From an uncultured Bacteroidales bacterium (GTDB taxonomy: Bacteria > Bacteroidota > Bacteroidia > Bacteroidales > Bacteroidaceae), in the NCBI GenBank assembly GCA_902779165.1, contig CACZAN010000004.1:29776-93775 (forward strand): a DNA stretch of 64,000 nt, given 5' to 3'. Below are positions 16,668-60,437 of this stretch, one piece after another. Position numbers and translations under genes: made by a program. How positions within the stretch are numbered: the first letter of the stretch is position 1; every line of letters begins with the position of its first letter. The notes beneath the pieces are model-generated. The model did no database searches and was not told where the DNA came from. It worked only from the letters and a program-made list of their open reading frames with translations.

Positions 16668-19115
16668 TTACAAATACGGCGCTGTGACGGAATCGGGGCT
16701 GGCGATCATCTCAGCAGGTGTTCCCTGGAAGATCAGGCGTCCGCCGTCTTCGCCTGCTCCAGGTCCGAGTTCGATGACATAGTCAGCAGCGCGGATGACA
16801 TCGGTGTTGTGCTCGATGACGAAGAGGGTGTTGCCCTCTGCCACGAGTTCACGGAAGAGTTCGATGATACGCTGTACGTCCTTCAGGTGGAGGCCATCGG
16901 TGGGTTCGTCGATGATAAATATCTTTCCTTGTTCCCCCAGGTGCGACGCCATTTTCAGTCGCTGAAGCTCACCTCCGGACAGGGTGGACAGAGCTTGGTT
17001 GAGGTGTAGGTAGCCGAGCCCCACTCGCTTGAGCGGCCTCAACTTCTGCTCGATGACGGTGTTGGGGAAGAAATCGCTGGCCAGACGCACGCTGAGGTCG
17101 AAGACTTCGGCGATGGAGAGGGCACCAAGGAAAAGCCCACCCCCGGCCCCTCCCCGGGGAGGAGAGTTCTTTTCTGCTTGCCCGGGGCCTGTCTGTTCTC
17201 CCCTCCCCGGGGCGGGGGCGGGGGTGGACTGTTGCTCACTTCCCTTTATTTTATATTGCAGCGCCTCCTTGCTGAAACGGAGTCCGCCGCAGGCTTCGCA
17301 CACGGTTTCGATATTGTCCATGAATGCCATCTCGGAGATGATGACACCCTTGCCGCCGCAGACGGGGCAGGCGCCCTTACCGTTGAAGGTAAAGTACGCC
17401 TCTTTCAGGTGGAACTTGCGGGCAAAGAGCTTGCGGATATCCGAAGCTACATCCATATAGGTGGCAGGAGTGGAACGGAGGCTGACGCCAATGTCCTTCT
17501 GACTGATATATACGATGTCCTTAGGCTGCGGGTAGGCACGGCGGAAACACTCCATCAGCGAGCTCTTGCCTGAACCGGCGACTCCGGCAATGACGGTGAA
17601 GCGACCGAGAGGAAGAGAGAGGGAGAGGTCGCGGAGGTTGTGGAGAGAGGCCGAGGATAAAGTAAATGACCCTGCCCCAAAGAGCTCACCCCCAGCCACT
17701 CCCTGGGGAGGGGAGTCCTTTTCCGCTTGCCCACTACCAGTCTGTTCTCCCCTCCCTGGGGAGGGGGCGGGGGTGGGCTCTTCCACCTTAGTCCTTAATG
17801 CTTCTCCCGTCGCAGTTCCACTATTCAGCAGTTCTTCGTAGGTTCCTTCGAAGACAACATGGCCGCCGTCAATGCCTGGGCCGGGTCCCATATCTACGAT
17901 ATGGTCGGCGATGCGTATCATCTCGCGGTGATGCTCAACGAGGAGGACGGTGTTGCCCGCATCGCGGAGGCGCTGCACGCTGTGCTTCATTAGTTCTATG
18001 TCGCGGTTGTGGAGTCCCACGCTGGGTTCGTCGAGGATGTAGAGGACATCGGCGAGCGAGGAGTTGATGTACTTGGCAATCTTACAGCGCTGTGCCTCGC
18101 CACCGGAGAGGGTGCCTACGGCACGGTCGAGGCTGAGGTAGCCCAGCCCTATTTCCTCGAGAGCGGTGAGGCGTGCGCCGATGGCGGCTTTCATATCCAC
18201 CGCCAGCGGGGATTCGATGCTGCGAATCCATTCATTGAGGCGTGTGATGCTCATGGCACACACCTCGGCGATATTTTTACCTTGAATCTTACACGACCGC
18301 ACGCGTTCGCACACACGCGAACCTCCGCAGTCAGGACAGGTGCCCATGCGCAACATAGGATTCAGCACGGCGGCATGCAGCAGTCCCTCCTCAGAGTTGA
18401 TGATGCTGCGATACATGCGGGGAATGAGGCCTTCGTACTTTGCCGTCTTCGGCCAATTGGCGGGCGGATTCTTCAGCTTGATCTGCGGGCTGTTGAGGAA
18501 GAGGTCGAGTTCCTCGGGCGTGTAGTCGCGGATTTTCTTGTCGAGGTCGAAGAGTCCGCTGTAGGCATAGCGTATCCAGCGCCAGCCGCCCTTTCCGAAG
18601 GCGATGTAGTGGATGGTATCTTCGTCGTTCAGGCTCTTGTCGAAATCTACCAGTTTATGAATATCCAATTCACGGATTTCGCCCAGCCCGGAGCAGCGGG
18701 GGCAGCTGCCTTCGGGATGGTTGAAGCTGAAGGATTCAGCATAGCCCACGAAAGGTTGGCCAACGCGCGAAAACAGCAGGCGCAACAGGGCATAGATGTC
18801 AGTATAGGTGCCGACGGTGGAACGCGAGTTGTTGGCAGGTTTCTTCTGGTCGATGACGATGGCGATAGGCAGGTTCTCGATGGCATCGACATGTGGACGC
18901 CCATATTTCGGCAGGTACTGCTGGACGAAGGTGGGGAAGGTGTCGTTCAATTCGCGACGCGACTTGGCTGCGATGGTGTCGAGGACCAAAGAACTCTTGC
19001 CCGAGCCCGAGACGCCGGTGAAGACGGTGATCTGGTGCTTGGGGATGGCGAGTGAGACGTCCTTCAGGTTATTCTCCCTCGCGCCACGGATGATGATGGA
19101 ATCTATGTTATTCAA
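16668..19115 (-). CDS. Short UvrA-like ABC ATPase carrying two in-frame repeat insertions
   Basis: A UvrA-family DNA-damage-recognition ATPase of 815 residues; classical UvrA has about 940. It has two ABC modules: Walker A GVSGSGKSSL near residue 35 and GVAGSGKSSL near 515, each with an LSGGE signature, plus CxxC zinc motifs (CPRC, CPDC, CPVC/CEAC). The UvrB-binding insertion of true UvrA appears absent, as in UvrA2-type paralogues linked to drug or DNA-adduct tolerance. Two palindromic elements at 17135-17228 and 17685-17779 are translated as Pro/Gly-rich insertions at about residues 629-660 and 446-477. It overlaps the proline dehydrogenase gene by 8 bases. Confidence 0.88.
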   Translation of the reverse strand: MNNIDSIIIRGARENNLKDVSLAIPKHQITVFTGVSGSGKSSLVLDTIAAKSRRELNDTFPTFVQQYLPKYGRPHVDAIENLPIAIVIDQKKPANNSRSTVGTYTDIYALLRLLFSRVGQPFVGYAESFSFNHPEGSCPRCSGLGEIRELDIHKLVDFDKSLNDEDTIHYIAFGKGGWRWIRYAYSGLFDLDKKIRDYTPEELDLFLNSPQIKLKNPPANWPKTAKYEGLIPRMYRSIINSEEGLLHAAVLNPMLRMGTCPDCGGSRVCERVRSCKIQGKNIAEVCAMSITRLNEWIRSIESPLAVDMKAAIGARLTALEEIGLGYLSLDRAVGTLSGGEAQRCKIAKYINSSLADVLYILDEPSVGLHNRDIELMKHSVQRLRDAGNTVLLVEHHREMIRIADHIVDMGPGPGIDGGHVVFEGTYEELLNSGTATGEALRTKVEEPTPAPSPGRGEQTGSGQAEKDSPPQGVAGGELFGAGSFTLSSASLHNLRDLSLSLPLGRFTVIAGVAGSGKSSLMECFRRAYPQPKDIVYISQKDIGVSLRSTPATYMDVASDIRKLFARKFHLKEAYFTFNGKGACPVCGGKGVIISEMAFMDNIETVCEACGGLRFSKEALQYKIKGSEQQSTPAPAPGRGEQTGPGQAEKNSPPRGGAGGGLFLGALSIAEVFDLSVRLASDFFPNTVIEQKLRPLKRVGLGYLHLNQALSTLSGGELQRLKMASHLGEQGKIFIIDEPTDGLHLKDVQRIIELFRELVAEGNTLFVIEHNTDVIRAADYVIELGPGAGEDGGRLIFQGTPAEMIASPDSVTAPYL
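17135..17228. repeat. Composite palindromic element, copy A (in UvrA-like gene)
   Basis: About 94 bases bounded by inverted GCCCACCCCC/GGGGGTGG ends, with two inner CCCTCCCC/GGGGAGG palindromes in opposite orientation and a spacer containing ttctgcttgcccg and ctgtctgttctcc. It aligns along its whole length with copy B 550 bases away. The host gene reads through it in frame as a Pro/Gly-rich segment. Confidence 0.88.
17685..17779. repeat. Composite palindromic element, copy B (in UvrA-like gene)
   Basis: About 95 bases, clearly homologous to copy A in both ends and in the spacer (tccgcttgcccactaccagt). It lies in the linker between the two ABC modules of the protein. Copies A and B give similar peptides (GRGEQTG, QAEK, SPP), because the same strand and frame are used. 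Confidence 0.88.
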
Positions 19116-22340: not shown

Positions 22341-23726
22341 TTAGTTTACTTCGATGAGTACCTCTGAAAGCGTAGGATGAATGTGAACGGTGTCGCGAAG
22401 TTGTCGCAAGGTGGCACCGAGGGTCATGTAAGCCGTCACTTCCTGAACGAGGTCGGCAGCATGAGCGCCAAAGACGTGGGCACTGAGAATGCGGCCTTCA
22501 CCGGGCTCGGTGAAGAGCTTGACCATACCTTCCGATTCATTCATTGCCAGAGCCTTGCCGTTGGCGCGGTAGAAGGCTTTGTGACATTCGCAGCTGACGC
22601 CAGCTTCTTTCAGCATATCCTCGCTGGGACCAACGCAGGCTGCCTCTGGAGAGGTAAAGATAGCGGCAGGCATCACCTCGAAACGGATGTTGTCTTCGAT
22701 GCCAAGAATTTGGTTCACAACGTGAATCCCTTGCATCTCGGCAGCATGGGCCAGCATCTGCTTTCCGTTGACGTCGCCAATGGCATAGATATGAGAAGCC
22801 CACCCCTGTCCCCTCCCTGAGGAGGGGGATTCGTTTCCGCTTACTTTCTGCCCATCTGGTCTCCCCTCCCCGGGGAAGGAAAGGGGGTTGGCTGTTACCT
22901 CAAAGTTCTCATCAACGGGGATGGCACCGTTGCGTTCCATGGTGATGCCAGCTGCTTCGAGGTTCAAACCCTCGGTACGGGGCTTGCGACCAGTAGCCAC
23001 CAGCACGACATCGGTCTCTACAGAGAGCTCCTTGCCTTTCTGCTCGAAGAAAACAGTCAGTTCCCCCTCCCTGACAGGGGAGGAGCTGGGGGAGATGCTT
23101 TTTACACCGGCCCCCATATAAAACGTCACACCTTTCTTTTCCATCTGTTTGCGCAGGCGCTTGGCGATGTCGCTGTCAAGAGCGGGCAAACATTCCTTAA
23201 GGAACTCTATAACCGTGACTTCGGAACCAAAGCGGTTGAAGACGCTAGCAAACTCCATACCAATTACACCGGCACCGATGATACAAAGCCGCTTGGGAAG
23301 GGTGTCGAGTTGGAGCAGCCCCGTAGAATCGACCACATTAGAACTATCAATGCCCGGAACCGGGATGAGTTTGCTGTCAGAGCCAGTGGCAATAATGATG
23401 TTCGAGGCGGTAAACTGTTCATCTCCCACACGAACGGTGTGGCCATCAACGAAAGAGGCCTTGCCGCGTACCAGTGTGATATTAGGATGCGAGAGGATCG
23501 TCTCTACGCCTGCACGGAGTTGGGGCACGACCTGCGCCAGACGCTCACGAGCTTCCTCAAAGGATGCACTATGCACATAAGTCTTCGTAGGGATACAACC
23601 TACGTTGAGGCAGGTGCCCCCCACGTGCCCCTCTTCGATGATGGTGACTTTGAGGCCATTCTTGGCAGCATGAGCCGCGGCTTTGTAGCCGCCAGGCCCA
23701 GCGCCGATAATGATAAGGTCTGTCAT
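22341..23726 (-). CDS. lpdA: Dihydrolipoyl dehydrogenase (glycine cleavage L protein) with two in-frame repeat insertions
   Basis: An FAD-dependent E3 enzyme that reoxidises lipoyl groups with NAD+; here it probably serves glycine cleavage. It has 461 residues from the ATG at 23726, which overlaps the gcvPB stop by 4 bases; a TTG at 23744 is less likely. Landmarks are IIGAGPGG, the redox pair Cys39/Cys44 in GGTCLNVGCIPTK, CIIGAGVIGMEFASV, IYAIGDVNG, and the catalytic HIHPTLSE at the end. Two palindromic elements are translated: residues 211-223, and about 278-310, the latter just before the conserved FAD-binding IYAIGD motif. All catalytic motifs survive, so the enzyme may tolerate them. Confidence 0.93.
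   Translation of the reverse strand: MTDLIIIGAGPGGYKAAAHAAKNGLKVTIIEEGHVGGTCLNVGCIPTKTYVHSASFEEARERLAQVVPQLRAGVETILSHPNITLVRGKASFVDGHTVRVGDEQFTASNIIIATGSDSKLIPVPGIDSSNVVDSTGLLQLDTLPKRLCIIGAGVIGMEFASVFNRFGSEVTVIEFLKECLPALDSDIAKRLRKQMEKKGVTFYMGAGVKSISPSSSPVREGELTVFFEQKGKELSVETDVVLVATGRKPRTEGLNLEAAGITMERNGAIPVDENFEVTANPLSFPGEGRPDGQKVSGNESPSSGRGQGWASHIYAIGDVNGKQMLAHAAEMQGIHVVNQILGIEDNIRFEVMPAAIFTSPEAACVGPSEDMLKEAGVSCECHKAFYRANGKALAMNESEGMVKLFTEPGEGRILSAHVFGAHAADLVQEVTAYMTLGATLRQLRDTVHIHPTLSEVLIEVN
22798..22894. repeat. Composite palindromic element, copy C (in lpdA)
   Basis: About 97 bases homologous to copies A and B: GCCCACCCC start, CCCTCCCTGAGGAGGGGG palindrome, spacer with tttccgctta and gcccatctggtctc, second palindrome CCCTCCCCGGGGAAGG, and a GGGGGTTGG end. 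It encodes about 32 extra residues between ENFEVTANP and HIYAIGDVNG. Confidence 0.88.
23058..23093. repeat. Simple palindromic element, copy D (in lpdA)
   Basis: About 36 bases: CCCCCTCCCTGACAGGGGAGG followed by a purine-rich agctgggggag tail. This is the short, single-palindrome form. It is translated as about 12 residues (SPSSSPVREGE) in the NAD-binding domain. Confidence 0.75.
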
Positions 23727-30464: not shown

Positions 30465-30505
30465 TTATGAAGGTTGAAAAGATGAAACGTTGAAAGGTTG
30501 AAAGG
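30465..30505. repeat. GTTGAAAG simple repeat
   Basis: Imperfect head-to-tail copies of GTTGAAA(A/G)G fill the gap between the ansA start and the next gene. The same word repeats at 47793-47846. It is probably a slippage-prone filler with no visible coding or hairpin content. Confidence 0.6.
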
Positions 30506-30512
30506 TTATTGG

Positions 30513-33500
30513 TTAGCGGACAACTTTGTGTCCCGCTTGGATGAAGAAACCCTTTGCGGGAACCTGACTCAGCTGACGACCGCTGAGGTCGTACATTACG
30601 CCATGCATATTTTCTTTTTTCCTTTCTGAATTGTCTATTCCTCCGATGCCATCTACGACGACGTCTGCGAGTTGCCACAAGTGCAGATTGTCGATATAGA
30701 GGCGGGTGTTATTGGCTGCTCCTTGATTGGCGCTGGTTTTCAGGCCGAGGCGAAAAGTGACGTCCGAGGCTTCGTCAAGAGTGAAATGGATTGCCTGCTG
30801 TTGCCAAGTATTAGCGGCGTCAGGATAGGGAGCGTAGTATTCCTGACTTCCGACGACTAATCCACAGAGAGCGGTATTGATATTCCCGCCTGTGGTGTTA
30901 ACAACGTTTGCTGCAGTACGGCGGCTTTCGTTGGCACAATCATAGCGCATATCAAAGGTGAGCGAATAGGTGCCAGCGGGTAGTGCTACGGTCTGGCTGA
31001 TGGCATTCGTTCCCACGGTCCAGGAATTAAGGATACTGAGGCAGCGGGTCATCGCGGAGTCGGCATCGGCGGCGGGGACAGCCATGATGCTGGTACTGTT
31101 GCCCAGATTGGAGGGCGAGACACAGTACTGAGTGAAGCTGTAGGGCATGGAATAGAGGAGGGCGAACTTCGAGGCGGGCGAGAGTTTAGACTCCGACGTC
31201 CACCCCTTCACGGGCAGCACCTGGGGGAAATTGCTGTTGGCGGCTTTCACCGACTGCGTGTAGCAGGGGTTATAGGTCGTGCCGTTCAAGGTGATGCTGC
31301 CTGTGGTGCCCCATGTATCGTCCTCCTCGAAATTAGGGTTTACGAGTACCTGAGCCGTAATGTCCTTGTAATAAGTGGTTTCGGCCTCTTCCACGTAGGC
31401 ATTGATATTGCCGTCGTCCAAACGGATCATGGTGGTTCCCTCAACAGAGATGGTCTTGCTGAAGATCTGTCCGTCGGCAATCATATTGACGATGATGTCC
31501 TCCTTGTGAGCGCCGAGCGGACGGACATAAAGCTGATGTTCATCGTTGCGATTGAACATCTTTGCCGCCACGCCCGACCCTTGTATGAAGACGGTCAGGG
31601 GTTGCATGAATGCCTGGTTCTCGTCGAGGGCCACATTGACAGAGGCTTTGCTGTCGATGACAAAGGTCTCGGTGTTCGAGAGAAGTACGGGTGCGCCCAG
31701 TCCCTCAAAAGTCAGGTCTTTCAGCTCTGCCTTATTGCTGCTGCCTCCTGCGAGGTTGGCAAGAATGAGATTCCGCTCGCCGTCGGGGTCGCTGACAATG
31801 AGCCCATTCCAACCGTTAGGCAACATTTCTGTCAGGGGGACGGCCTGCTCAGCAAGTTTCGCCGTCTGGGCACTATCTACTTTGCTGTAGTAGATGACCA
31901 CCGAGCGGTCTACGACCTTCCCTTTGGTGAACGACTCACTCTTGGCTGAATAGAGGGGATAGAACTTCGAGCAGAGGATGCTGTTGTTGTTTGCTTGCTC
32001 GCCAAAGGCCATCTGGCCTGTGCCGCCCAGGGTTACAACTCCTATACTGTTGTCTATATTGGCCCACGAACTTTCGAACCGCGTCGTACTCTTGCCGCTG
32101 GTCTGCGTGCTGCCGTTGGCGTAGTAGAGGGTGCGCAGGGGACGGGTGAACTCATCGGTAGTAATGGCCAGCAGTCCGCCACGCCGGCCTGTGATGGTGC
32201 CGCTCTGCAAGCCCTTGACGTGATTCATGTAGACAACCGCATTGCCTCGTGTGGCAGCCAGTACGAAGCTGTTTTCCAGCGTGGCATCATTAGTGTTGAG
32301 ACGCCCGTTCATCGTGAAGGCGTTGTCATTCAGATGATAGATTCCGCTGACGACTGGAGCTGCATTGGTGCCCTTGCCACTGACGTTGTACCATCCGAGG
32401 ATGTTGCCTGTGTTGTTGGCGCGGAAGGGACAGATGATCTTATTGCGGTCGGGAGTGGTGTCGGTGAAGTAACCCGTGTAGCTGCTCAGACCTGTACTCC
32501 ATGAGAAGGTGACGAAGCGGTCTTTGCTGCTGGCACGCACGATGTTCTGCGAGCGGAAGAGGCGGGCTTCCTGATATTCCCTACTGAAGGCTTCCCACGT
32601 GGCAGGCTGCAGGTCTGCGGTGGAGGCTGCGACGTGCATGAGGTAGGTCATCATCACACGATGAGCTTCCACACCCATTCTGCGGCTGCCGACATCAGAG
32701 CGCAACAGCCACGAGCCGTCGGTGGTGGTTTTCTGACGCGCCTTGATGAACTTGTAGGCCATGTTTTCCAGCAGAAGCGCGTTCTTGTCGCGAAGGAAGC
32801 AGGCCATCGTAGAGTACGACGTAATCTGGTCAAAGAGGAACAGGCTCCAGTCGTTGCCATTAGGCATCGCCAGCTCGCCGTCGGCCAGCGCCAGCCAGTT
32901 CAGCACATCGTCCATCACGTGTTGCTGGTTGTGCATCAGGGCGTTGGTCTTCCACTTCACGTTGTCGCCCTGAAAGAGGAGCATGGCCAGATGCGCCTCG
33001 CCCAGTTCTTGCATGACCACGTTCTGGTAGGAAGTGTGGAAGAGGTTGTGGTTCTGGAGCGTGTAGTCGTCATAGAGGTTTTGTCCCTTGTAGTAACTGG
33101 CTATGGTCTTCTGGTCATAGTCGGGGTCGATGACGTTCTGGTTATGGGCATCGTCCACCTGCGAATAGCTATTGATGGCGAAGTCGCGCAGACGGTCGAA
33201 CCAGCGGGCTGCCAAAGCATCGTCAGGATAGAGGCCAAGTGCACAGGCAAGGATGTCGGCCTCCCATCCGTTTTCCTCGGCTTTGGTGTCGCCAGCGTAG
33301 CCCGTTGGGATGCTGCGGCCCAACTCATAGTTGCACTCGGCCTTCACCATATTATATATATACGTGCGTTGGGCGTCGGTCAGCTCGTCCTTCAGGAAAT
33401 AAGCGGAATAGCAGAGCGACATAGCCCACAAAGAACTTTCCCAAGTGTTGTCAGACGTGCTGGTTGAGCCCCAATAGGCGTTGCGGCTCGTGACCTTGAA

Positions 33501-34959: not shown

Positions 34960-35043
34960 TCATATAAATAGTTCAAAGATCTAAAGTTAAGACTTCTGCT
35001 CTCTATCATGTTTGCATTCATAAAGAAACTTTTAGCAAAAGTG

Positions 35044-35088
35044 ACTGCACCCTCCCTTATTGGGAGGGCGGGAGGAGGGTCCGAGTCT
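35044..35088. repeat. Palindromic element, copy E (5' end of pth)
   Basis: CACCCTCCCTTATTGGGAGGG followed by a purine-rich tail (cgggaggagggtccgagtctt). It falls between two possible pth starts (35008 and 35098). If translated from 35008 it gives [14 protein letters not shown], nearly the same peptide as in the two anti-sigma genes (APSLTGRAGGESS, APSITGRAGGESS). Confidence 0.85.
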
Positions 35089-35097: not shown

Positions 35098-35730
35098 ATG
35101 GAAAAATTCCTAATTGTAGGACTGGGCAATATCGGTCCTGACTATGTCGGTACCCGCCACAACATCGGATTCCGGATGGTCGACGCGCTGGCTGCTTCGG
35201 TGAACGAGGACAAGGGACGGCAGACCGAGTGGGAAGACCGCCGCTACGGATTCATCACACGCATCAGCGTCAAGGGACGACAGCTCATCCTGCTCAAGCC
35301 CAGCACCTTCATGAACCTCAGCGGCAATGCCGTCCGCTACTGGATGCAACAGGAGAAAATAGAGCTGGAGCACCTGCTCATCTGCGTGGACGACCTCGCC
35401 CTACCCTTCGGACAGCTGCGCATGAAACCCGCAGGCAGCGACGCCGGCCACAATGGACTGAAACACATAGCACAGGTTCTCGGCACCCAGCAGTATGCCC
35501 GACTGCGCTTCGGCATCGGCAACGATTTCTACCCAGGTCAGCAGGTGGACTATGTCCTCAGCACTTTCCCGCCAGAAGAAGAAGCCCTCATTCCCGAACG
35601 TACCAAAGAGACCTCTGCTGCCATCAAGACCTTCTGCCTCGCAGGAATACAGATGGCCATGAATCAGCTGAATAAAAAAAGGCCCACCCCCAACCCCTCC
35701 CGTAATGGAGGGGAGAAGCCTGCGGAGTGA
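35098..35730 (+). CDS. pth: Peptidyl-tRNA hydrolase
   Basis: Releases tRNA from stalled peptidyl-tRNA. From the ATG at 35098 it has 210 residues starting [11 protein letters not shown], the usual N-terminus of the family. An upstream ATG at 35008 would add 30 residues, partly made by a palindromic element. Catalytic landmarks are [14 protein letters not shown] (catalytic His), [13 protein letters not shown] (Asn), and [27 protein letters not shown]. The last residues ([16 protein letters not shown]) and the stop codon are provided by another copy of the same element, so both ends of this gene have been shaped by repeats. Confidence 0.93.
35681..35717. repeat. Palindromic element, copy F (3' end of pth)
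   Basis: GGCCCACCCCCAACCCCTCC then cgtaatggaggggagaag: the CCCCTCC/GGAGGGG palindrome with the CCCACCCCC end seen in copies A-C. It is translated as the last dozen residues of Pth. Confidence 0.8.
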
Positions 35731-35773
35731 AATCAGAAGGACACGTGGTGAGCTGACTATATACAAAGAACAA

Positions 35774-36277
35774 ATGAACGAGAAGAATACATCGCGCCAG
35801 CCTTCCCCCCTCCCTGACGGGAGGGGAATGGGGGTGGGTCTTGCCCGTCTCGATAAATGGCTCTGGGCCGCCCGCATCTTCAAGACCCGCACCCTCGCTG
35901 CAGCCGCCTGCAAGCGAGGACAAGTCACCGTGGGCGGAGTGCAGATGAAACCTTCGCGGACCGTGAAGGTGGGTGATGTCATCGATGTCCGCAAGCCCCC
36001 CATCACCTACAGCTTCCGCATCCTGCAAGCTATAGAGAAGCGAGTGGGTGCCAAACTCATCCCCCAAATCCTGGAGAATGTCACCACTCCCGAGCAGTAC
36101 GAACTACTGGAGATGAACCGCATCAGCGGATTCGTCAACCGCGCTCGCGGCACAGGACGCCCCACCAAGAAAGAACGCCGTGCCATCGATGACTTCAGCG
36201 CTCAGGCAGCAGACATCCCCATCTTCATCGGCGACTTCGACTTCGACTTTGGAGATGACGATGAGGAAGAGGATTGA
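35774..36277 (+). CDS. S4-domain RNA-binding protein (Hsp15/HslR-like)
   Basis: A 167-residue S4-domain protein: LARLDKWLWAARIFKTRTLAAAACKRGQVTVGGVQMKPS is the S4 RNA-binding fold, and the C-terminal part (LENVTTPEQYELLEMNRISGF, GRPTKKERRAIDDF) is conserved in Bacteroidetes. Relatives of Hsp15 rescue 50S subunits carrying nascent chains, which would fit its place behind peptidyl-tRNA hydrolase. The first 23 residues before LARLDKW come largely from a palindromic element; homologues start at about the equivalent of residue 23. The C-terminus is very acidic (DFDFGDDDEEED). The alternative start at 35705 inside pth is unlikely. Confidence 0.9.
   Translation: MNEKNTSRQPSPLPDGRGMGVGLARLDKWLWAARIFKTRTLAAAACKRGQVTVGGVQMKPSRTVKVGDVIDVRKPPITYSFRILQAIEKRVGAKLIPQILENVTTPEQYELLEMNRISGFVNRARGTGRPTKKERRAIDDFSAQAADIPIFIGDFDFDFGDDDEEED
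35800..35842. repeat. Palindromic element, copy G (5' end of the S4 gene)
   Basis: CCCCCCTCCCTGACGGGAGGGG followed by aatgggggtgggtctt, that is the core palindrome plus the GGGGGTGGG end. It is translated as PSPLPDGRGMGVG in the S4 protein's N-terminus. Confidence 0.85.
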
Positions 36278-41667: not shown

Positions 41668-41705
41668 GCTTTCTTTGGAATTTTAGCTTACGTGCCAGAA
41701 AAAAA

Positions 41706-41995
41706 ACTGTGGACTGTGGACAACTGTGGACATTTCCTGAACCCAACTACCCCTTCCCGCGGAAAACTGTAATCTGTGGACAACTGTGGACATCCTGTAT
41801 GTGTACCCCTCCCCGCGAAAAACTGTAATCTGTGGACAACTGTGGACAATTACATTCATCTGTGAAAAAACGATGAACGATTTTCCTTTCCCTCGCCGCA
41901 AAGTTGAATCTTCTGCCCGCCGCGAAAAAAAACTGTGGACATGTGGACATCCCCGAAGTTGTCCACAGTTGTCCACAGATTACAGTTTTCCGCGG
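41706..41995. repeat. Array of 37-base units containing paired TGTGGACAA boxes
   Basis: The unit CCGCGGAAAACTGTAATC + TGTGGACAACTGTGGACAT occurs at 41757-41793 and 41813-41849, as decayed forms at about 41706-41733 and 41918-41950, and inverted at 41958-41995. Each holds two TGTGGACA(A/T) words 9-10 bases apart; the complement TTGTCCACA is one base from the DnaA box TTATCCACA. About ten such words lie within 290 bases. A further inverted unit is at 42873-42909. Confidence 0.85.
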
Positions 41996-42028
41996 CGACC
42001 CCTATTCTCTCCAGTCGTATCTCCCCCC

Positions 42029-42062
42029 ACGTTTATACATATCTGCCCTTACGTTTATACGT
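42029..42062. repeat. Second locus of ACGT(T/A)TATACGT boxes, 22-base step
   Basis: ACGTTTATACAT at 42029 and ACGTTTATACGT at 42051, exactly 22 bases apart, with the spacer atctgccctt resembling the spacers of the 8406-8505 array. This ties the two repeat nests together. Confidence 0.75.
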
Positions 42063-42104
42063 CTCTGCCGTTAATCAGTGGTTAAACAATTGGGCGGATG
42101 TAGA

Positions 42105-42515
42105 TTACTTCAATGTTGCAAGATATTCTGTTGCAGTCATCACGGGCAGTTTCGAGGCAGAAAAGTCTTTGCCGTTGCGGGTGATGATTATATCGGCTTT
42201 GGACTTCAACGCACAATAATACTGCATTGCATCCTCAAAGTCATTAAACTGTGATGCCAGCGAGTCATCAACGGTACGTTCATTGGTTGTGGCCACACGG
42301 GAGAGCTGCCGGAAGTTGGACAGCAGATTACGTACGCCTTCGGCTCCGTGCCTGTGAAGGAGGAAGGATGCGGTGGTGTAGGTCATCGGCGACACGATGA
42401 GCTGTACCTGCTTGTTGTAGGCCATAGTGAATAATTGCACGGCATCGTGGCAGAACGGCTCACGGCGGTCGAGCAGGTCGATGACGATATTGGTATCAAG
42501 AAACAAGCGCGTCAT
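42105..42515 (-). CDS. PIN-domain ribonuclease toxin (VapC-like)
   Basis: A 136-residue PIN domain: FLDTNIVIDLLDRREPF at the N-terminus gives the first acidic residue, ERTVDDSLASQFNDFEDAMQ the middle ones, and IITRNGKDF the last. This is a complete Mg2+-dependent RNase site. It overlaps the antitoxin gene by 4 bases (42512-42515), the usual toxin-antitoxin coupling. Confidence 0.88.
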   Translation of the reverse strand: MTRLFLDTNIVIDLLDRREPFCHDAVQLFTMAYNKQVQLIVSPMTYTTASFLLHRHGAEGVRNLLSNFRQLSRVATTNERTVDDSLASQFNDFEDAMQYYCALKSKADIIITRNGKDFSASKLPVMTATEYLATLK

Positions 42516-42757
42516 TTGTACTTCTCCTCCAGATGCTTGTAATAGGCCTCGCGTCCGTTCAAGTCCTCATCGGCCACAGGTTCGCCGGCTCCAAGCAAGC
42601 TCAGTACCACATCGGGAATAGCTTGCTCTGTCTCCGCCTTATTACCCTGGGCGAAGCGCACGAGGAAATTCTCTATGACTGATGTGAGGTTCAAGCCATG
42701 TTTCTGGGCGTACACCTGAGCCGGGAGATAAATGCTAGGATTGATAGCTACTTCCAT
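42512..42757 (-). CDS. DUF6364-type antitoxin partner of the PIN toxin
   Basis: An 81-residue protein with an N-terminal ribbon-helix-helix-like segment (NPSIYLPAQVYAQKHGLNLTSVIENFLVRF) and a charged C-terminal tail (REAYYKHLEEKYK) that would bind the toxin. It lies upstream of the PIN gene and overlaps it. The pair stands alone between repeat units at 41958-41995 and 42873-42909. Confidence 0.8.
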   Translation of the reverse strand: MEVAINPSIYLPAQVYAQKHGLNLTSVIENFLVRFAQGNKAETEQAIPDVVLSLLGAGEPVADEDLNGREAYYKHLEEKYK

Positions 42758-42785
42758 AGTTGCAGTTTATTGGTGAATTCGGCCG

Positions 42786-42793
42786 CAAAGGTA
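42786..42793 (-). promoter_or_regulatory. -7 element of the toxin-antitoxin operon
   Basis: The minus strand reads TACCTTTG, a perfect TAnnTTTG, about 30 bases before the antitoxin ATG. The 37-base repeat unit at 42873-42909 lies upstream of it. Confidence 0.7.
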
Positions 42794-42872
42794 CGCATTT
42801 TTTTCAAAATAAGCGGCAATTGCACGAAAAAAGTGACCACTTCTCAGAAAACGGTGGCAAAAAACCATGAAA

Positions 42873-42909
42873 ATGTCCACAGTTGTCCACAGATTACAGT
42901 TTTCCGCGG
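42873..42909. repeat. Isolated copy of the 37-base TGTCCACA unit
   Basis: The same unit as in the 41706-41995 array, in the orientation of the copy at 41958-41995. It lies on the far side of the toxin-antitoxin pair, so the module is framed by direct copies. It also abuts the 3' end of the mechanosensitive channel gene. Confidence 0.85.
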
Positions 42910-42926
42910 CGGGTATGCCACAGACA

Positions 42927-47138: not shown

Positions 47139-47792
47139 ATGTGGTTTGAACATGTAACTTTACTTGATTTGACCGTCAAAGGTCTGCTCGTAGGCATCGT
47201 TGCCAGTGCTCCTATGGGGCCTGTCGGCGTGCTCTGTATTCAGCGCACTCTGAACAAGGGACGATGGTACGGATTGGTGACCGGATTGGGTGCTGCCCTC
47301 AGCGACATCATCTATGCATTGATCACGGGTCTGGGCATGAGTTTCGTGCTGGAGTTCATCGAACAACCCCGCACCATGTATTTTCTACAGCTGATTGGCA
47401 GCATTCTCCTTTTCGCCTTTGGTTTTTACACCTACCGGACAAAGCCCCATTTGCGTCCGCCCTCGAAGAACAAAGGTACATTGGCAAAGAACTTTGCCTC
47501 AGGCTTCTTCGTTACGCTCAGTAATCCGCTGATTGTATTCCTCTTCATGGCACTCTTCGCCCGCTTTACCTTTGTCGTTCCCGATCATATCGGTCAGCAG
47601 ACGTTGGGTTATATGAGTATCTTCCTCGGCGCAATGCTGTGGTGGTATGGATTAACGTATGTGGTCGATAAGTTGCGCACCACATTCGAGCTGAGCCGTA
47701 TCTCCCTAATCAACAGTATTATCGGAGTCATTGTGATGACGGTCTCGTTCCTCGGTCTGCTTTCGACCTTGCTGGGACTGACGCTGTATTAA
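47139..47792 (+). CDS. LysE/RhtB-family amino-acid exporter
   Basis: A 217-residue inner-membrane protein with six hydrophobic segments. The family signature GLLVGIVASAPMGPVGVLCIQRTLNKGRWYG is at the N-terminus, and the NPLIVFLFMALF segment is in the middle. It probably exports an amino acid or related metabolite. It is followed by a GTTGAAAG simple repeat. Confidence 0.9.
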   Translation: MWFEHVTLLDLTVKGLLVGIVASAPMGPVGVLCIQRTLNKGRWYGLVTGLGAALSDIIYALITGLGMSFVLEFIEQPRTMYFLQLIGSILLFAFGFYTYRTKPHLRPPSKNKGTLAKNFASGFFVTLSNPLIVFLFMALFARFTFVVPDHIGQQTLGYMSIFLGAMLWWYGLTYVVDKLRTTFELSRISLINSIIGVIVMTVSFLGLLSTLLGLTLY

Positions 47793-47846
47793 GGTTGAAA
47801 AGTTGAAAGGTTGAAAATTGAAAGGTTGAAAGATTGATAATTGAAG
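47793..47846. repeat. GTTGAAAG simple repeat
   Basis: Five or six imperfect copies of GGTTGAAA(A/G) run from the lysE stop to near the next gene, the same word as at 30465-30505. Confidence 0.65.
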
Positions 47847-47856
47847 AAGTAAAGAC

Positions 47857-54787: not shown

Positions 54788-55270
54788 ATGATAGACAAAG
54801 AAGCACTCGAAACGCTGTTCCGCAGTCACTACCGCGAGATGTACCGACTGGCCATGACGCTGCTGCACGATGAGGCAGAGAGCAAGGACGTCGTGGCCGA
54901 CGTGTTTGCACGGATGGCAGAGGCAGACCGCACGGAAGGCGCTAGCTATCTGCTGGCGGCGGTGCGCAACCGCTGTCTGAACCAGCTGCGTAACCGCAGC
55001 ATCCAGCAACGCATCCAGCGGTTCTACCTTCTGGAGCAGGAGGTGGAAACGAAATCGGCAGAACAGTTGTGCGAGGAGTCCCGCCTGCTGGAGCAGGGTA
55101 TCGGGCAGTTAGAACCACCAATGTGCGAGCAGGTCATCAGGCTTCACTTCGAGCAGGGCATGACCTTCCGCGAGATTGCCTTGCAGCTCGGCACCAGCGA
55201 GACCACGGTCTATAAATACCTGCGCCGCGCAATGCATCAATTACGTCAACACCTAAATAATGAATCGTGA
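54788..55270 (+). CDS. ECF RNA polymerase sigma factor (first locus)
   Basis: A 160-residue sigma-70 factor of the ECF type. Region 2 spans about residues 8-75 (LFRSHYREMYRLAMTLLHD, DVVADVFARM, AAVRNRCLNQLR), and region 4 about 105-155 (QVIRLHFEQGMTFREIALQLGTSETTVYKYLRRAM, a helix-turn-helix). It heads a sigma/anti-sigma/outer-membrane-receptor operon and is expected to respond to a signal relayed by the receptor. Confidence 0.94.
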   Translation: MIDKEALETLFRSHYREMYRLAMTLLHDEAESKDVVADVFARMAEADRTEGASYLLAAVRNRCLNQLRNRSIQQRIQRFYLLEQEVETKSAEQLCEESRLLEQGIGQLEPPMCEQVIRLHFEQGMTFREIALQLGTSETTVYKYLRRAMHQLRQHLNNES

Positions 55271-55273
55271 GTT

Positions 55274-56002
55274 ATGAAAAACGAGCCTAAAACCGACGTT
55301 CTACTGCGCATGATGGAGCAGCCGGAACGATATACAGAAGAACAGTGGCGCGACATCCTCAGCGACAGCGAGTGCCGCGAGCTCTACACTTTGATGGCCA
55401 TGACCCGTGGCAGTCTCGATGCCGCCAAGGCTGATGCGGAACTGACGGACGAGGAGATTGAAGAAGAATGGAAGAAAGTAAAAGACCCACCCCTCACCCT
55501 CCCTGTGAGGGAGGGAGTGGTTACCTTTGAGGAAGAGAGTACGCTGCCTTCAAATCATTCTACCCCCTCCCTTACAGGGAGGGTGAGGGGTGGGTCTGCT
55601 CTTCATCGCATTGCCGCCATCTTCCTCGCCGCCGCCTTCCTCGGCGGCCTGGCATGGGCATTTGTCCCTCGCCTCCGCTCTCACCACACAGCAGAGCCAC
55701 CTCAGCCCACAAAGGTATCTGCTCCCTCCCTAACAGGGAGGGCGGGGGGAGAGTCTTCCTCCATCTCCTTCTCCAACCTCCCCCTCGACAGCATCCTCCG
55801 CGTTGTGGCCGCTCACTACAGCTATGAAGTCTGCTTCCGCGACTCTGCAACACGGACGATGAAGTTCATCACGACTTGGAATCCAGAGGACTCCCTCGCC
55901 GCCTTCATCGAGCATCTCAACATGTTCGACGGCCTGCACCTGATACTCAGAGATGATACCATTTTTGTGGAAAGCACTAACGACGGGGAGGACGCACAAT
56001 GA
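55274..56002 (+). CDS. Anti-sigma factor with DUF4974-like domain and two translated repeat insertions (first locus)
   Basis: A 242-residue single-pass protein: a cytoplasmic N-terminal part (residues 1-70), a membrane helix at about 113-132 (IAAIFLAAAFLGGLAWAF), and a periplasmic C-terminal DUF4974/STN-like domain (SNLPLDSILRVVAAHYSYEVCFRD). The central FecR domain of usual anti-sigma factors seems missing, so it is a short form. Palindromic elements at 55483-55597 and 55719-55759 add about residues 70-108 before the membrane helix and 149-162 in the periplasmic linker. Its stop overlaps the receptor start by 4 bases. Confidence 0.82.
   Translation: MKNEPKTDVLLRMMEQPERYTEEQWRDILSDSECRELYTLMAMTRGSLDAAKADAELTDEEIEEEWKKVKDPPLTLPVREGVVTFEEESTLPSNHSTPSLTGRVRGGSALHRIAAIFLAAAFLGGLAWAFVPRLRSHHTAEPPQPTKVSAPSLTGRAGGESSSISFSNLPLDSILRVVAAHYSYEVCFRDSATRTMKFITTWNPEDSLAAFIEHLNMFDGLHLILRDDTIFVESTNDGEDAQ
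55483..55597. repeat. Composite palindromic element, copy H (first anti-sigma gene)
   Basis: A 115-base element whose ends are a perfect 24-base inverted repeat (AGACCCACCCCTCACCCTCC and on), each end followed by a small CCCTCCCT/AGGGAGGG palindrome, with a 40-base unique middle. This is the longest, best preserved member and shows the composite form to be two core units facing each other. Confidence 0.9.
55719..55759. repeat. Simple palindromic element, copy I (first anti-sigma gene)
   Basis: GCTCCCTCCCTAACAGGGAGG with the purine tail gcggggggagagtctt, translated as APSLTGRAGGESS. The second anti-sigma gene has the same element at the matching place. Confidence 0.9.
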
Positions 56003-59000
56003 AACGGCTACTATACCTTATTATATATATGTGCTCTTTGACGAGTTCCCTGTCTGCTCAAGAGTCCGACTCGCTTCTCACCGTTCTCCGCAACATAGAA
56101 CAGTCTCAGTCAGAATACACCATCGACATCATCTCCGATGGGCTGGAAGAGCTGAAGGCACCAACCACAAAAGCTGATGGGCTGGATGCGGTGAAAGCTG
56201 TCATGCGGGCATGCAAGCGTCTGCCCGTTAAGGTGAAAGTACACGGGAAGCATATCTACGTGCAGCACGAGGGGATGAAGGTGGAACGCAAGCTGTGGCT
56301 GAAAGGCATGGTTCAGGACATTCGCGCACACAAGGACCTCCTCGGTGCCACGGTGGTGCTGATGCGCCCCGACAGCACGGTCATCGAGCAGAAGGAAGCC
56401 TACCAGAAACATCACGCCGAGGGCTTTTCGTGGGAGACCAGCGAGTTCTCGTTCTCCGTACCAGCCCGGCCAGCCAAATACCTCTTCCGCATCAGCCTCA
56501 TGGGCTATCAGACCACCTACGTGGAGTATGCCATCAACAAGGTAGGCCGGCGCGAGTACGAGCGCGGCCTGCCTCCCTTCTACCTGGCGCCACAGGCCAG
56601 CACGATGAAGGAAGTGACCATAACGGCCTCCAAAGTCAAATTCTACTACAAGGGCGACACCATCATCTACAACGCCGATGCCTTCATCCTCGCCGAAGGA
56701 TCCATGCTCGATGCACTCATCAAGCAGCTGCCGGGCGTTGAGATGAAGTCGGACGGACGCATCTACCACGAAGGTAAGTTCGTGGACGACCTCCTGCTCA
56801 ACGGCAAGGAGTTCTTCAGCCATGACCGCAAGCTGATGCTGGAAAACCTGCCCGCCTACACCGTCAAAGACATAGCCATCTACGACAAACAAACAGCCGA
56901 AAACGAATGGTTAGGCATCAAGGACGAGCGCTCGCAGCGACATGTCATCGATGTGCGCCTGAAGAAGGAGTTCATGGTGGGATGGCTGGTGAATGTGGAA
57001 GCAGGTGGGGGCACGAACGAAAGGCAACGGATAGGCGACGGAACGTCGGGAATGCGCTACCTTGGCCGCTTGTTCGCTATGCGCCACTCAGACTTCTCGC
57101 GCATCGCCATCGTAGCCAATGCCAACAATCTCGATGACGATACCAAACCCGGCGAGAGCGACAATTGGCAGCGCGGTCAGACCAATGACCTGCGATGCAC
57201 CGAGCGCGCTGACATTGGCGGCTTCGTCAGCGACCGCAACAAACGATGGGAGACCTCGGGCAACGTCTCCATCAATCACCAGCGGACGGAAGGCGCAACC
57301 CGCACTGTGCGGCAGAACTACTTGTCCTCAGGCGACACCTACGACCACAGCTTCACGAGCCGCACGGGCGAGAACCTGCGTATTGGAGGCTGGTTGAGTT
57401 TCTACCGCAACTTCAAGAACGTGCGCTGGCACATCGATCCCAGCCTGAACTACCACCACTTCAACAACAGCTCCGACCTTGTCTCCGCCACATTCAATGC
57501 ACCCGTGGCCGACGTCAGCCGTCAGCTCCTGAACGACCTCTTCAGCCCCAATGCCTCACGCATCAACCTGCGCGACACGCTTGTCAACCGTATCTTGCGA
57601 CAAGGTTCAGGCCGTGGTCACACCTGGGACGGCACCCTCCACACCGGAGCTACCATCAAGATTCCGCACACCAACGAAAACCTACGCCTCGGTGCCGGCG
57701 TCAACTTCATCGGACGGGAGGAAAAGATGTTTGACCAGCAATCCGTTTCCTATGCTGCAACAGCGTTGCAGCCCACCTCCCCATCCCCCTCTTCTTCTTC
57801 CTTCAACCACTTCCGCGACAACCACCCCACGCGCGACGGCAAAGCCTACTTCAACGTCGGCTACAACATTCCACTGGGCGAAGGCTGGCGCTCAATCCAC
57901 GCCACCTATGGTTTCGAACACCGATGGCAGCACCACCGCTCGACGCTGTATCTATTGGAGGAAAGCCAAGACCCCAACCTCACTCTCCCCTCCCTCACCG
58001 AGTACCAACAAGTGATGGACCGCGCTAACAGCTTCGACAGCCACTCCCGCGAGAACCGCCACAAGTTGGATATCAACCTCGGCTACATGTTCAACAAAGC
58101 CTCCTACGGCCAGATCTGGACGCTCCTCAACGGCGACATCACCGTGCACCAACAGGGACTCGACTACCTTCGCGGCCGCATCGACACCACCCTCCATCGC
58201 ACCGCCGTCACCTTCAACCTGGACGATAACACCTTTCTCGACTTCAAGGGCGGTCATCAACTCGGCGTCACCATGGGCATCCACGAGACATTGCCCGATC
58301 TGGAGCACCGCATTGATCTGCGCGACGATACCGACCCAATGAACGTCCGCCTGGGCAATCCCAACCTTCGCAAAAGCACCACTCCAGATATCGGCGCCTA
58401 CTTCACCTTCCGAACCAAGGATCAGAGTTTCCAACGATGGGAATGGCACCATCGCCAGACCTTCAACGCCGTGGCCATGGGCTACACCTACGACACCAAG
58501 ACGGGCGCACGCACCTATCGCCCCGAGAATGTCAATGGCAACTACACCAGCGACGGCGGCTACACCTTCCACCGCAACTTCGGCACCGCTCAGAAGATGA
58601 GCCTCGACCTGCCTTTACATCTCACCCTCATCCAAAGCGTGGACATAACGGGAGGGGAGCGTTCCACCGTTCACCGTCTCTCCCTCTCCTTCTCCCCTTC
58701 TTTCAAGGCCGACATCGGCAAGCAACACTTCGAACTGACCTGCCAACCCGTCTGGGACCGCCTCACCAGCAACCGCTCTGATTTCCAGAACTTCAGCGCC
58801 TTCACCTGTCGCACCTCCCTCTCGGCCATCTTGAAGCTTCCGTGGAAGCTGGACCTCTCGACCGACCTCAACCTCTACACACGCACGGGCTATGCCGACG
58901 CTGCGCTGAACACCAACGACCTCGTCTGGAACGCCCGCCTCGCACGTCCTTTCTTCAAGGGTAAGCTCCTTGTGCTCCTCGACGGCTTCGACATCCTCAG

Positions 59001-59127
59001 ACAGCTCTCGAATGTCACCCGCACGATGAACGCCCAGGGCCGCACCGAGACCTACACCAACGTCATGCCCCGCTACGTCCTTCTCCACGCCGTTTGGCGC
59101 TTCAACAAACAGCCGAAGAAACAATAG
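55999..59127 (+). CDS. TonB-dependent-receptor-like outer-membrane protein (first locus)
   Basis: A 1042-residue outer-membrane protein: signal peptide (1-20), an STN-like domain (about 22-90: LLTVLRNIEQSQSEYTIDII, LPVKVKVHGKHIYVQ), a carboxypeptidase-regulatory-like beta domain (about 95-200), a plug (about 205-300: VTITASKVKFYYKGDTIIYNADAF, LIKQLPGVEMKSDGRIY), then a large barrel. A signalling receptor that controls the upstream sigma/anti-sigma pair is the usual role of this arrangement. It has a close paralogue at 60437-63514. Confidence 0.88.
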   Translation: MKRLLYLIIYMCSLTSSLSAQESDSLLTVLRNIEQSQSEYTIDIISDGLEELKAPTTKADGLDAVKAVMRACKRLPVKVKVHGKHIYVQHEGMKVERKLWLKGMVQDIRAHKDLLGATVVLMRPDSTVIEQKEAYQKHHAEGFSWETSEFSFSVPARPAKYLFRISLMGYQTTYVEYAINKVGRREYERGLPPFYLAPQASTMKEVTITASKVKFYYKGDTIIYNADAFILAEGSMLDALIKQLPGVEMKSDGRIYHEGKFVDDLLLNGKEFFSHDRKLMLENLPAYTVKDIAIYDKQTAENEWLGIKDERSQRHVIDVRLKKEFMVGWLVNVEAGGGTNERQRIGDGTSGMRYLGRLFAMRHSDFSRIAIVANANNLDDDTKPGESDNWQRGQTNDLRCTERADIGGFVSDRNKRWETSGNVSINHQRTEGATRTVRQNYLSSGDTYDHSFTSRTGENLRIGGWLSFYRNFKNVRWHIDPSLNYHHFNNSSDLVSATFNAPVADVSRQLLNDLFSPNASRINLRDTLVNRILRQGSGRGHTWDGTLHTGATIKIPHTNENLRLGAGVNFIGREEKMFDQQSVSYAATALQPTSPSPSSSSFNHFRDNHPTRDGKAYFNVGYNIPLGEGWRSIHATYGFEHRWQHHRSTLYLLEESQDPNLTLPSLTEYQQVMDRANSFDSHSRENRHKLDINLGYMFNKASYGQIWTLLNGDITVHQQGLDYLRGRIDTTLHRTAVTFNLDDNTFLDFKGGHQLGVTMGIHETLPDLEHRIDLRDDTDPMNVRLGNPNLRKSTTPDIGAYFTFRTKDQSFQRWEWHHRQTFNAVAMGYTYDTKTGARTYRPENVNGNYTSDGGYTFHRNFGTAQKMSLDLPLHLTLIQSVDITGGERSTVHRLSLSFSPSFKADIGKQHFELTCQPVWDRLTSNRSDFQNFSAFTCRTSLSAILKLPWKLDLSTDLNLYTRTGYADAALNTNDLVWNARLARPFFKGKLLVLLDGFDILRQLSNVTRTMNAQGRTETYTNVMPRYVLLHAVWRFNKQPKKQ

Positions 59128-59224: not shown

Positions 59225-59371
59225 CTTTCCGAATGAATGCGAAATAAGGCACAGGATTATTTTTTTCCTTCTAAATATAAGTTTCCGACACAAAAATGCG
59301 TTAAAATAATAAGCTAAGGTTAGGAAAATGCCCAGTTAATTTGTCTTTAGGATAAATGATTGTAACAAAAG

Positions 59372-59851
59372 ATGAATCAGGTGATATTAGAAACACTCTT
59401 CAACGCACATTGCGCACGGTTGCTTGACGAGGCCCGTACCATGCTCTACGATGCTGAGGAAGCACGGGATGTGGTGAGCGAGCTCTTTGCTGAGCTATTG
59501 CAACGCATGCCCGACGTGGAGCCCGGCCATGAACTGGCTTACCTCAGTGAGAGTGTGCGCAACCGCTGTCGAAACATTTTAGCCCGCAAGACACTGACGG
59601 AGAAGGTGACGCACCTCTACGCCTTGGAACAGCAGACGATGACTGGGGAGGAGGAGACGGAGTGGCTGGATTGCCTGCATGCGTTCATCCACACAGGGCT
59701 GACGACGGCTCAGCAGCGGGTGTTCCAGCTGCGCTTCGGAGAAGATAAGAAGTACCGAGAGATTGCTGCCGAGCTGGGTATCAGCGAGGTTGCGGTCTAT
59801 AAACATCTTGTTGCTGCACTCACACGAATCAAAAATCATTTCAAATCCTAA
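59372..59851 (+). CDS. ECF RNA polymerase sigma factor (second locus)
   Basis: A 159-residue ECF sigma factor, paralogue of the one at 54788: LFNAHCARLLDEARTMLYDAEEARDVVSELFAELL (region 2) and RVFQLRFGEDKKYREIAAELGISEVAVYKHL (region 4, helix-turn-helix). It heads the second sigma/anti-sigma/receptor operon. Confidence 0.93.
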   Translation: MNQVILETLFNAHCARLLDEARTMLYDAEEARDVVSELFAELLQRMPDVEPGHELAYLSESVRNRCRNILARKTLTEKVTHLYALEQQTMTGEEETEWLDCLHAFIHTGLTTAQQRVFQLRFGEDKKYREIAAELGISEVAVYKHLVAALTRIKNHFKS

Positions 59852-59855
59852 AGAC

Positions 59856-60437
59856 ATGGAAACGAACGAGAAACTAATGATGCTTCTACGGATGATGGAC
59901 GAGCCGGAAGCCATGACCGAGGCCCAGCTGCAGGAACTGCTCGCGGACGAAGAGGTGCGCGAAATGTACGGATTGATGTCCGACTGCAAGAAGGTATATA
60001 AAAGAATGAATAGTGAAAGGATGAAAAATAAAAAATATGAGTTACTTTTCACATTCCGCAAGATTGCCGCTATCTTCCTCGCCGTGGTCTTCTTTGGCGG
60101 GCTGGCCTTCGCCGCCTACCACTTCCTATCGTCGAAGACGGAAAAACAGTCGGTGGAAGTGACCGCTCCCTCCATAACAGGGAGGGCGGGGGGAGAATCT
60201 TCTCCCATCCGCTTCTCCAATGTCCGCTTGGACAGCATTCTCACCGTCGTGGCAGCCCACTACAACTGCGAAGTATGCTTCCGCGACACCACTGCCCAGG
60301 CGCTGCGATTGAGCACTGTGTGGGATAGGGAGGACTCGCTGGCCGTGTTCCTCCAAACCCTGAATGAGTTCGATGGATTGCGACTCACGGACGAGCGCGA
60401 CACCATCTTTGTCGAATCCCTAATCGTGGAGGACTGA
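59856..60437 (+). CDS. Anti-sigma factor with DUF4974-like domain (second locus)
   Basis: A 193-residue paralogue of the gene at 55274, from the ATG at 59856 (4 bases after the sigma gene; an earlier Met at 59763 lies inside it). Cytoplasmic part 1-68, membrane helix about 69-88 (IAAIFLAVVFFGGLAFAAY), periplasmic DUF4974-like domain (SNVRLDSILTVVAAHYNCEVCFRD). The palindromic element at 60163-60204 gives residues 103-116. It lacks the larger insertion found in its sister. Its stop shares one base with the receptor start. Confidence 0.82.
   Translation: METNEKLMMLLRMMDEPEAMTEAQLQELLADEEVREMYGLMSDCKKVYKRMNSERMKNKKYELLFTFRKIAAIFLAVVFFGGLAFAAYHFLSSKTEKQSVEVTAPSITGRAGGESSPIRFSNVRLDSILTVVAAHYNCEVCFRDTTAQALRLSTVWDREDSLAVFLQTLNEFDGLRLTDERDTIFVESLIVED
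60163..60204. repeat. Simple palindromic element, copy J (second anti-sigma gene)
   Basis: GCTCCCTCCATAACAGGGAGG plus the tail gcggggggagaatctt, translated as APSITGRAGGESS at the same place as copy I in the sister gene. The element was probably present before the operon duplicated. Confidence 0.9.

Follow-up and report, generated by a model that had tools for sequence, protein, structure and literature searches.

An uncultured Bacteroidales bacterium carries a family of short palindromic elements, many of which lie in frame inside housekeeping genes, and the long form of the family encloses a gene for a DUF559 (PF04480) nuclease. The elements were recognized in a stretch of 64,000 nucleotides (contig CACZAN010000004.1, positions 29,776 to 93,775; assembly GCA_902779165.1), referred to here as the window. 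Its genome of 3.59 Mb is called G000, and other G, C and L numbers are handles for genomes, contigs and loci. The elements are built from hairpins, or arms, that stand singly or as facing pairs. Copies in two of the host genes are in-frame insertions relative to homologues, the copies inside genes have passed a filter for reading frame, and DUF559 genes are physically linked to the repeats. The explanation that best accounts for these observations jointly, and to which we give slightly better than an even chance, is that the palindromes are short, mostly non-autonomous mobile elements, that their full form is arm, DUF559 gene, arm, and that the nuclease is the most likely mobilizer.

Palindromic elements in coding sequences

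The strict pattern CCCTCCC(n)GGGAGGG has six matches in the window and none in 100 shuffles of it. When one mismatch is permitted, the window features 14 hairpins in nine elements, which are five facing pairs and four single arms. The host genes identified by Pfam encode a UvrA-like ABC protein (two pairs), lipoamide dehydrogenase (LpdA; one pair and one single arm), peptidyl-tRNA hydrolase (Pth), an S4-domain protein and two FecR_C anti-sigma proteins.

Elements of the window (window positions; strand "." for all nine):
17131..17233, facing pair in the UvrA-like gene, residues 628-662, in frame
17683..17782, facing pair in the UvrA-like gene, residues 445-478, in frame
22797..22896, facing pair in lpdA, residues 283-316, in frame
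23063..23091, single arm in lpdA, residues 218-228, in frame
35041..35082, single arm in the N-terminal leader of pth, residues 12-25; start codon putative
35681..35841, facing pair at the pth/S4 junction; the left arm is the pth C terminus and the right arm the N terminus of the S4 protein
55483..55597, facing pair in the first FecR_C anti-sigma gene, residues 70-108, in frame
55718..55756, single arm in the first FecR_C anti-sigma gene, residues 149-161, in frame
60158..60200, single arm in the second FecR_C anti-sigma gene, residues 132-146, in frame

These elements bear out the original prediction, made from the sequence of the window, of a palindromic family with short and composite forms lying in frame within housekeeping genes. 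The composite form had been given as 94-115 bases, however, and the facing pairs of the window span 100-161 nt. The prediction also counted two copies at the ends of pth and one in the S4 gene. The copies at the junction do lie in coding ends, but they are the two arms of one 161-nt pair and not separate copies; each gene reads into its own arm alone, and there is no translation across the pair. The N-terminal copy of pth precedes the Pfam domain. This copy may be coding, with a putative start codon, because a similar leader, with another element peptide, is present in G024. The pair at 55483..55597 features the tag AGACCC...GGGTCT complete at both ends.

The FecR_C genes belong to two adjacent paralogous modules (window 54788-59127 and 59372-63514). 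A single-arm element occupies the corresponding position in each module (55721 and 60165), with 72% identity over 217 nt, so this copy is probably older than the module duplication.

Alignments indicate that the lpdA and UvrA-like inserts are in-frame insertions relative to homologues. LpdA residues 283-316 are absent in all 23 rows of relatives (22 genomes; L042 represents G024 again); at this site G027 and G003 have other residues and L043 has a short remnant with terminal sequence. Both Protein Data Bank (PDB) alignments shown pass from query residue 284/283 directly to 318/317. At the site of the single copy, related peptides occur in G027 and G028 and degenerate ones in G024 and G026, which, judged by alignment, makes this copy older than these species. 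The UvrA-like protein features two inserts of ~34 residues that are absent in most of 22 relatives and in both PDB alignments shown, of which 7sh1 jumps from query residue 626 to 664. In some relatives these linkers hold different in-frame residues, as in L041, L042 and L044 at the 445-478 linker. No homologue from an unrelated genus was found with the same residues, the LpdA and UvrA-like homologues lacking them.

The structural models place the inserts in loops. In the LpdA model, a predicted local distance difference test score (pLDDT) below 50 is confined, among internal segments, to 288-315; strands 213-219 and 229-235 are joined by a turn that contains the single insert. The UvrA-like model is weaker (mean 66), and residues 445-480 and 627-662 fall below 50, as do several other stretches. 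The extra residues would be present in the mature proteins. As a separate observation, the LpdA site of L174, L176 and L042 and the UvrA-like protein of L041 feature translated simple repeats such as STLNSQLSTFNSQLSTL; these loops thus accept other types of in-frame repeat too.

Architecture of the repeat unit

The main sample comprises 1,110,875 bases from G000, G003 and G024, in stretches picked for elements or for genes resembling transposases associated with repetitive extragenic palindromic sequences (REPs), that is, REP-associated tyrosine transposases (RAYTs). It contains 160 hairpins in 109 clusters, of which 61 are single, 45 double and 3 triple. The outer tag GAC(C/T)C(A/T)CCC adjoins 104 of the 160 hairpins and a looser form of it 8 more. 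Tagged neighboring arms less than 190 nt apart face each other in 27/32 cases, and a survey of arm spacing in 70 sources (1.26 Mb) revealed consecutive facing arms at 106-216 nt in 37 cases, mostly at 108-179 nt, with 9 wider. Among the matches listed, pairs compared between copies end at AGAC...GTCT and diverge outside. The repeat unit consists of two hairpins that face each other, each with AGAC(C/T)C(A/T)CCC as its outer tag. There are several subfamilies, which differ in the sequence between tag and stem. When folded as single strands, the six pairs examined form long hairpins (z -4 to -13). Target-site duplications (TSDs) were scanned for in 27 pairs with k of 2-8 at offsets 0-3; nothing beyond chance was found, with one 3-mer match at offset 3.

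Reading frames and insertion into genes

The coding state of element flanks was judged from hexamer scores. By this measure, 34 of the 109 elements (31%) of the main sample lie inside one open coding frame. Of the others, 27 have a single coding flank, in a frame that stays open through the element, and 22 have one coding flank that ends before the element; the flanks are coding in different frames in 12 cases, on different strands in 5, and in the same frame with a stop in 4, and 5 elements have no coding flank. Among 2000 random positions, 53.2% fall inside genes, and because only 34/109 elements are internal there is no preference for genes. If two thirds of internal insertions were lost, the random value would become 27.5%, compared with the 31% seen. 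Where the coding flanks are on one strand, their frame is the same at 38 elements and different at 12 (p = 8e-10 against 1/3). The length is divisible by three in 17/20 internal pairs vs 10/25 other pairs (p = 0.0024), and internal pairs are shorter (median 87 vs 120). All three reading frames are used among the in-frame copies. Residence inside genes is close to the outcome of random insertion followed by loss of out-of-frame copies, and the frame statistics give a simple quantitative account of repeats within genes. Weakened folding in coding copies was considered and rejected, as the contrary was seen: internal pairs fold more strongly per base.

In BLASTP comparisons on a limited sample, a cross-genome homologue aligned on both sides of 24 of the 109 elements, on one side of 24 and on neither side of 61; the 24 two-sided cases include elements 29 and 90, which are weak and whose main match is to one another. 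If the 18 internal elements are scaled by the ratio of strict matches (118/53), G000 would have ~40 proteins with inserts, an extrapolation from picked stretches.

Occurrence in other genomes

The G000 genome has 118 strict matches vs 3 for a reversed control pattern. In the same GTDB-like genus, one or more copies of CCCTCCCTN{2,8}GGGAGGG are present in 115 of 139 genomes; counts range from 0 to maxima of 230 and 224 on the respective strands. Further copies in the genome, on which the prediction of a family depended, are thus abundant. The tag block GGGAGGGN{1,5}GGGGTGGGTC was found in 20 of 61 relatives, every one of the same genus. A genus-only distribution was suggested by 0/24 genomes of other families, but was overturned by a phylum sample in which the tag block occurs in 17/395 genomes: G000, one each from two families, and 14 of one family in another class, which have up to 14 and 13 matches. 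Twenty such tag-block stretches were read and feature the same block within longer repeats of different sequence. The left-tag pattern found no partner in these 20 stretches, and by eye a C-rich partner is seen in L320 and L330.

An exact hairpin scan of IMG/VR gave 60 stretches with 87 hairpins, of which 15 have the strict tag. Many of the remaining hairpins (GC 0.63-0.73) carry ACCCACCCC/GGGGTGGGT, and six facing pairs span 84-127 nt. One of the stretches has a short DNA match to plasmids of Sphingomonas parapaucimobilis (2 records, E 3e-4 and 1e-3). A search of plasmids and phages with the window pair by DNA gave no match. The original prediction placed the family in Prevotella-like genomes; the carriers are Prevotella-like bacteria of the rumen, and the UvrA-like relatives do fit this description, being from Bacteroidaceae, Prevotellaceae, Prevotella, Muribaculaceae, Porphyromonadaceae, Bacteroidales and broader uncultured Bacteroidia/Bacteroidetes metagenome-assembled genomes (MAGs). 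The tag and hairpin pattern is not confined there, however; it reaches beyond Prevotella-like genomes as a likeness at the level of pattern, for which common descent is not claimed.

The enclosed DUF559 gene

A feature that the original prediction did not foresee is a DUF559 gene enclosed in the long form. Three long facing pairs (483-505 nt) each enclose one open reading frame (ORF) of 121-137 residues:
L159:19036-19518, DUF559-bearing pair, G000
L245:1580-2082, DUF559-bearing pair, G024
L265:9213-9717, DUF559-bearing pair, G024

All three ORFs are assigned to DUF559 by Pfam (E 3e-31 to 5e-33), with weaker matches to REase_MTES_1575. A profile built from them found five distinct DUF559-like ORFs in the loci gathered by then. 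In the examined Bacteroidota loci, 3/3 DUF559-like ORFs have facing arms 53-78 nt off on both sides. Of the other two ORFs, L383 has one arm, and its protein continues into the arm peptide; L411, which is cut by the locus end, has no arm.

A tblastn search revealed DUF559 relatives in 34 plasmid records. An inverted repeat was accepted at a DUF559 gene if it scored at least 14 within 250 nt, with displaced positions as control. By this criterion 12 of 15 chosen plasmid DUF559 genes feature a flanking inverted repeat, vs 0/15 displaced controls. The 12 are from Sphingomonas (3), Sphingobium, Novosphingobium, Qipengyuania, Sinorhizobium, Deinococcus (3) and Pseudanabaena (2), and the phyla of the plasmid set are Pseudomonadota, Deinococcota and Cyanobacteriota. 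The plasmid repeats are G/C-rich hairpins, several of them CCCTCCC-like. Such a repeat is present at 6 of 43 IMG/VR DUF559 loci, vs 0/44 for a displaced control that included plasmids. The DUF559-repeat link is a real association. Several DUF559 genes of annotated plasmids have genes of a shared pathway on both sides (sufB/sufC, transhydrogenase subunits, paaD/paaZ), the position expected of an inserted element.

Proposed mechanism and alternatives

In the mechanism proposed here, the elements would insert widely without TSD. Copies that land in genes out of frame would be lost, and in-frame, stop-free copies would survive because the loop that they add between secondary-structure elements is flexible and rich in Pro/Gly/Ser/Arg. 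At full length, the element would consist of arm, DUF559 nuclease gene, arm, with a length of ~485-505 nt in this genus. The nuclease, which we infer to move the element, would act in trans, with either the arms or the target DNA as its substrate, and the copy would be made by break repair. A more general proposal is tentative, and we would place it below an even chance: facing G/C-rich arms around DUF559, together with small derivatives lacking the gene, may form a class of mobile elements in Bacteroidota, Alphaproteobacteria, Deinococcota and Cyanobacteriota that is spread by a nuclease rather than a transposase and for which in-frame residence is near-neutral.

Several observations weigh against a mobilizing DUF559 nuclease. 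The plasmid DUF559 loci of Methylobacterium, Synechocystis and Picosynechococcus have no inverted repeat reaching score 14, and 37/43 IMG/VR DUF559 loci lack such a repeat at this threshold. Other DUF559 genes have arms of different sequence beside them, and in L465 and L469 the tag points inward, as judged by eye. In G000, just 1 of 41 arms shares intra-arm sequence with the DUF559 element L159:19036-19518, so a derivation of the short pairs from this copy is unsupported. No same-species empty site was seen. In addition, the number of RAYT-like loci correlates with the number of elements (Spearman 0.56, n = 37; 0.46 after genome size; phylogeny uncorrected).

This correlation favors an explanation that we regard as unlikely but worth weighing, in which the elements are REP doublets forming hairpins (REPINs) that the genus's own RAYT-like HUH (Y1) proteins mobilize in trans, and DUF559 is cargo of a few copies. 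G000 has eight divergent RAYT-like loci, the best NCBIfam match of the RAYT-like proteins is REP_Tyr_transpos (E 2e-7 to 5e-11, below its cut-off), and the facing-pair anatomy and lack of TSD fit single-strand transposition. However, the scanned flanks of 60 RAYT-like genes contain an element-like motif of any kind in 8 cases and both stem halves in two (L157, L275), and for the 17 RAYT-like genes of G000, G003 and G024 ~1.3 are expected arithmetically from the sample density. The Y1 loci of seven other tag- or hairpin-bearing genomes have the tag in the flank at 0/30. Genomes without RAYT-like genes carry elements (G028, G041), genomes with them carry almost none (G039, G042, G004, G006), and no RAYT-like clade is common to element-rich genomes. 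Long-C-terminus Y1 subclasses without flanking REPs are described in an excerpt of PMC6006769. When 55 of the 60 genes were tested, no strong matching inverted repeat was found except in L301 and L287, where the sequence is different. The RAYT as main mobilizer was dropped, since it has no physical linkage to the element.

Terminal inverted repeats and size would also suit miniature inverted-repeat transposable elements (MITEs) of an ordinary DDE insertion sequence, an origin that we consider improbable. The TSD of the 27 scanned pairs does not exceed chance, although old age could erase it. A DUF559 ORF is enclosed in three of the nine wider facing pairs; two others are without an ORF of 90 residues, and the ORFs of the remaining four were read by eye as chromosomal genes. 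It is a shade less probable still that in-frame copies are kept for their usefulness, for instance in G-quadruplex or hairpin control of translation. A G-quadruplex motif is found in or beside the arm of 31/60 hairpins, with 49 motifs in total vs 3-11 in five Markov simulations, and internal pairs have the stronger folding per base. This folding may merely reflect shorter spacers, however; the internal share is about that expected from a pure frame filter, and the insert sites vary between genes and relatives, and decay. A G-quadruplex role was rejected because, despite the enriched motif, subfamily I misfits it and no function follows. Finally, the genomes used are MAGs, which could raise suspicion of assembly error or of chance GC-rich palindromes; this is excluded by the shuffle and reversed-pattern controls, by the many independent MAGs and by the plasmid comparison, which draws on complete plasmids. 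The element with a putative mobilizing DUF559 nuclease is our preferred explanation.

Other repeats of the window and of RAYT-like loci

An Rfam scan of the window matched 5S rRNA alone, a partial gene on the minus strand at the window edge (63906-64000). The window also features tandem AAGGTTGAAA-like repeats (30470-30514 and 47791-47850), a CTGTGGACAACTGTGGACA repeat with several direct and inverted copies (41688-42911), and TTTACGTATATACGT repeats (8403-8483); similar TATGTATATACGT runs follow a RAYT-like gene in L155. The RAYT-like gene of L301 (G007 C175) is flanked by its own 27-nt palindrome, which has 3 copies in G007, on that contig, and none in the other 60 genomes searched. L287 (G023 C21) features a RAYT-like gene with a 19-nt inverted repeat, and long direct GGGCGACGAACGGGACGAAGAGG-type repeats enclose the RAYT-like gene of L152 (G000 C18). 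Other GC-rich palindromes lie within RAYT-like coding regions (L121:2250-2269, L126:2133-2152 and 2235-2254, L132:1367-1385, L134:1981-2000, L125:2184-2202). Palindromes in the coding region are reported for Y1 subclass 2.4 in an excerpt of PMC6006769.

Relation to known palindromic repeats

Palindromic repeats in frame within genes have been known since the Rickettsia genomes. What is new here is the family, its tag, the frame statistics and the DUF559 link; in the literature searched, no description of the family or of a DUF559 partner was found among the matches listed. The original prediction compared the elements to Rickettsia palindromic elements (RPEs), and the comparison holds for their behavior. 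According to an excerpt of PMC3733652, RPEs are short palindromic repeats in frame in unrelated protein genes, and here 34/109 elements are internal and open. RPEs differ in host and, as described, in sequence. The excerpt assigns RPE-4 and RPE-6 to the CGTC superfamily, whereas CGTC is found near the hairpin foot in just 2/160 hairpins here.

The closest published parallel is wider than RPEs and includes in-frame REPs. Di Nocera et al. 2013 (PMC3733652) describe such REPs for several species; in both Opitutus terrae and Thioalkalivibrio, uvrA holds two REP dimers. The elements resemble REPs and REPINs in having hairpins as facing doublets, a high and variable copy number, and residence in uvrA. 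They differ from REPs of the GTAG superfamily in that GTAG or GTGG occurs within 8 nt of either hairpin foot in 0/160 hairpins, in having another outer tag and in being linked to DUF559 and not to a RAYT. The inverted doublet that defines REPINs is seen here in the facing arms and in whole pairs that match between copies, yet 61/109 clusters are a single recognized hairpin.

Among Y1-associated repeats, the likeness to TIRYTs and TIRtrons (Y1 subclass 2.1) consists of Y1 proteins with a long C-terminal part in this genus, and families of terminal inverted repeats (TIRs) occurring in dimers are reported in the same excerpt of PMC3733652. The Y1 genes here are, however, without this element at their flanks. 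DDE-type MITEs differ in their TSD, for which the 27 pairs gave no sign. The CGTC repeats are similar in that facing dimers predominate, units are intragenic and no transposase gene is associated with them; the excerpt of PMC3733652 reports them without any transposase. They differ in their CGTC tag. If the account given here is true, DUF559 could be the missing partner of palindromic repeats without a transposase, such as the CGTC repeats, and the small enclosed nuclease gene, which adjoins matching palindromes in four bacterial phyla, is a concrete and testable candidate.

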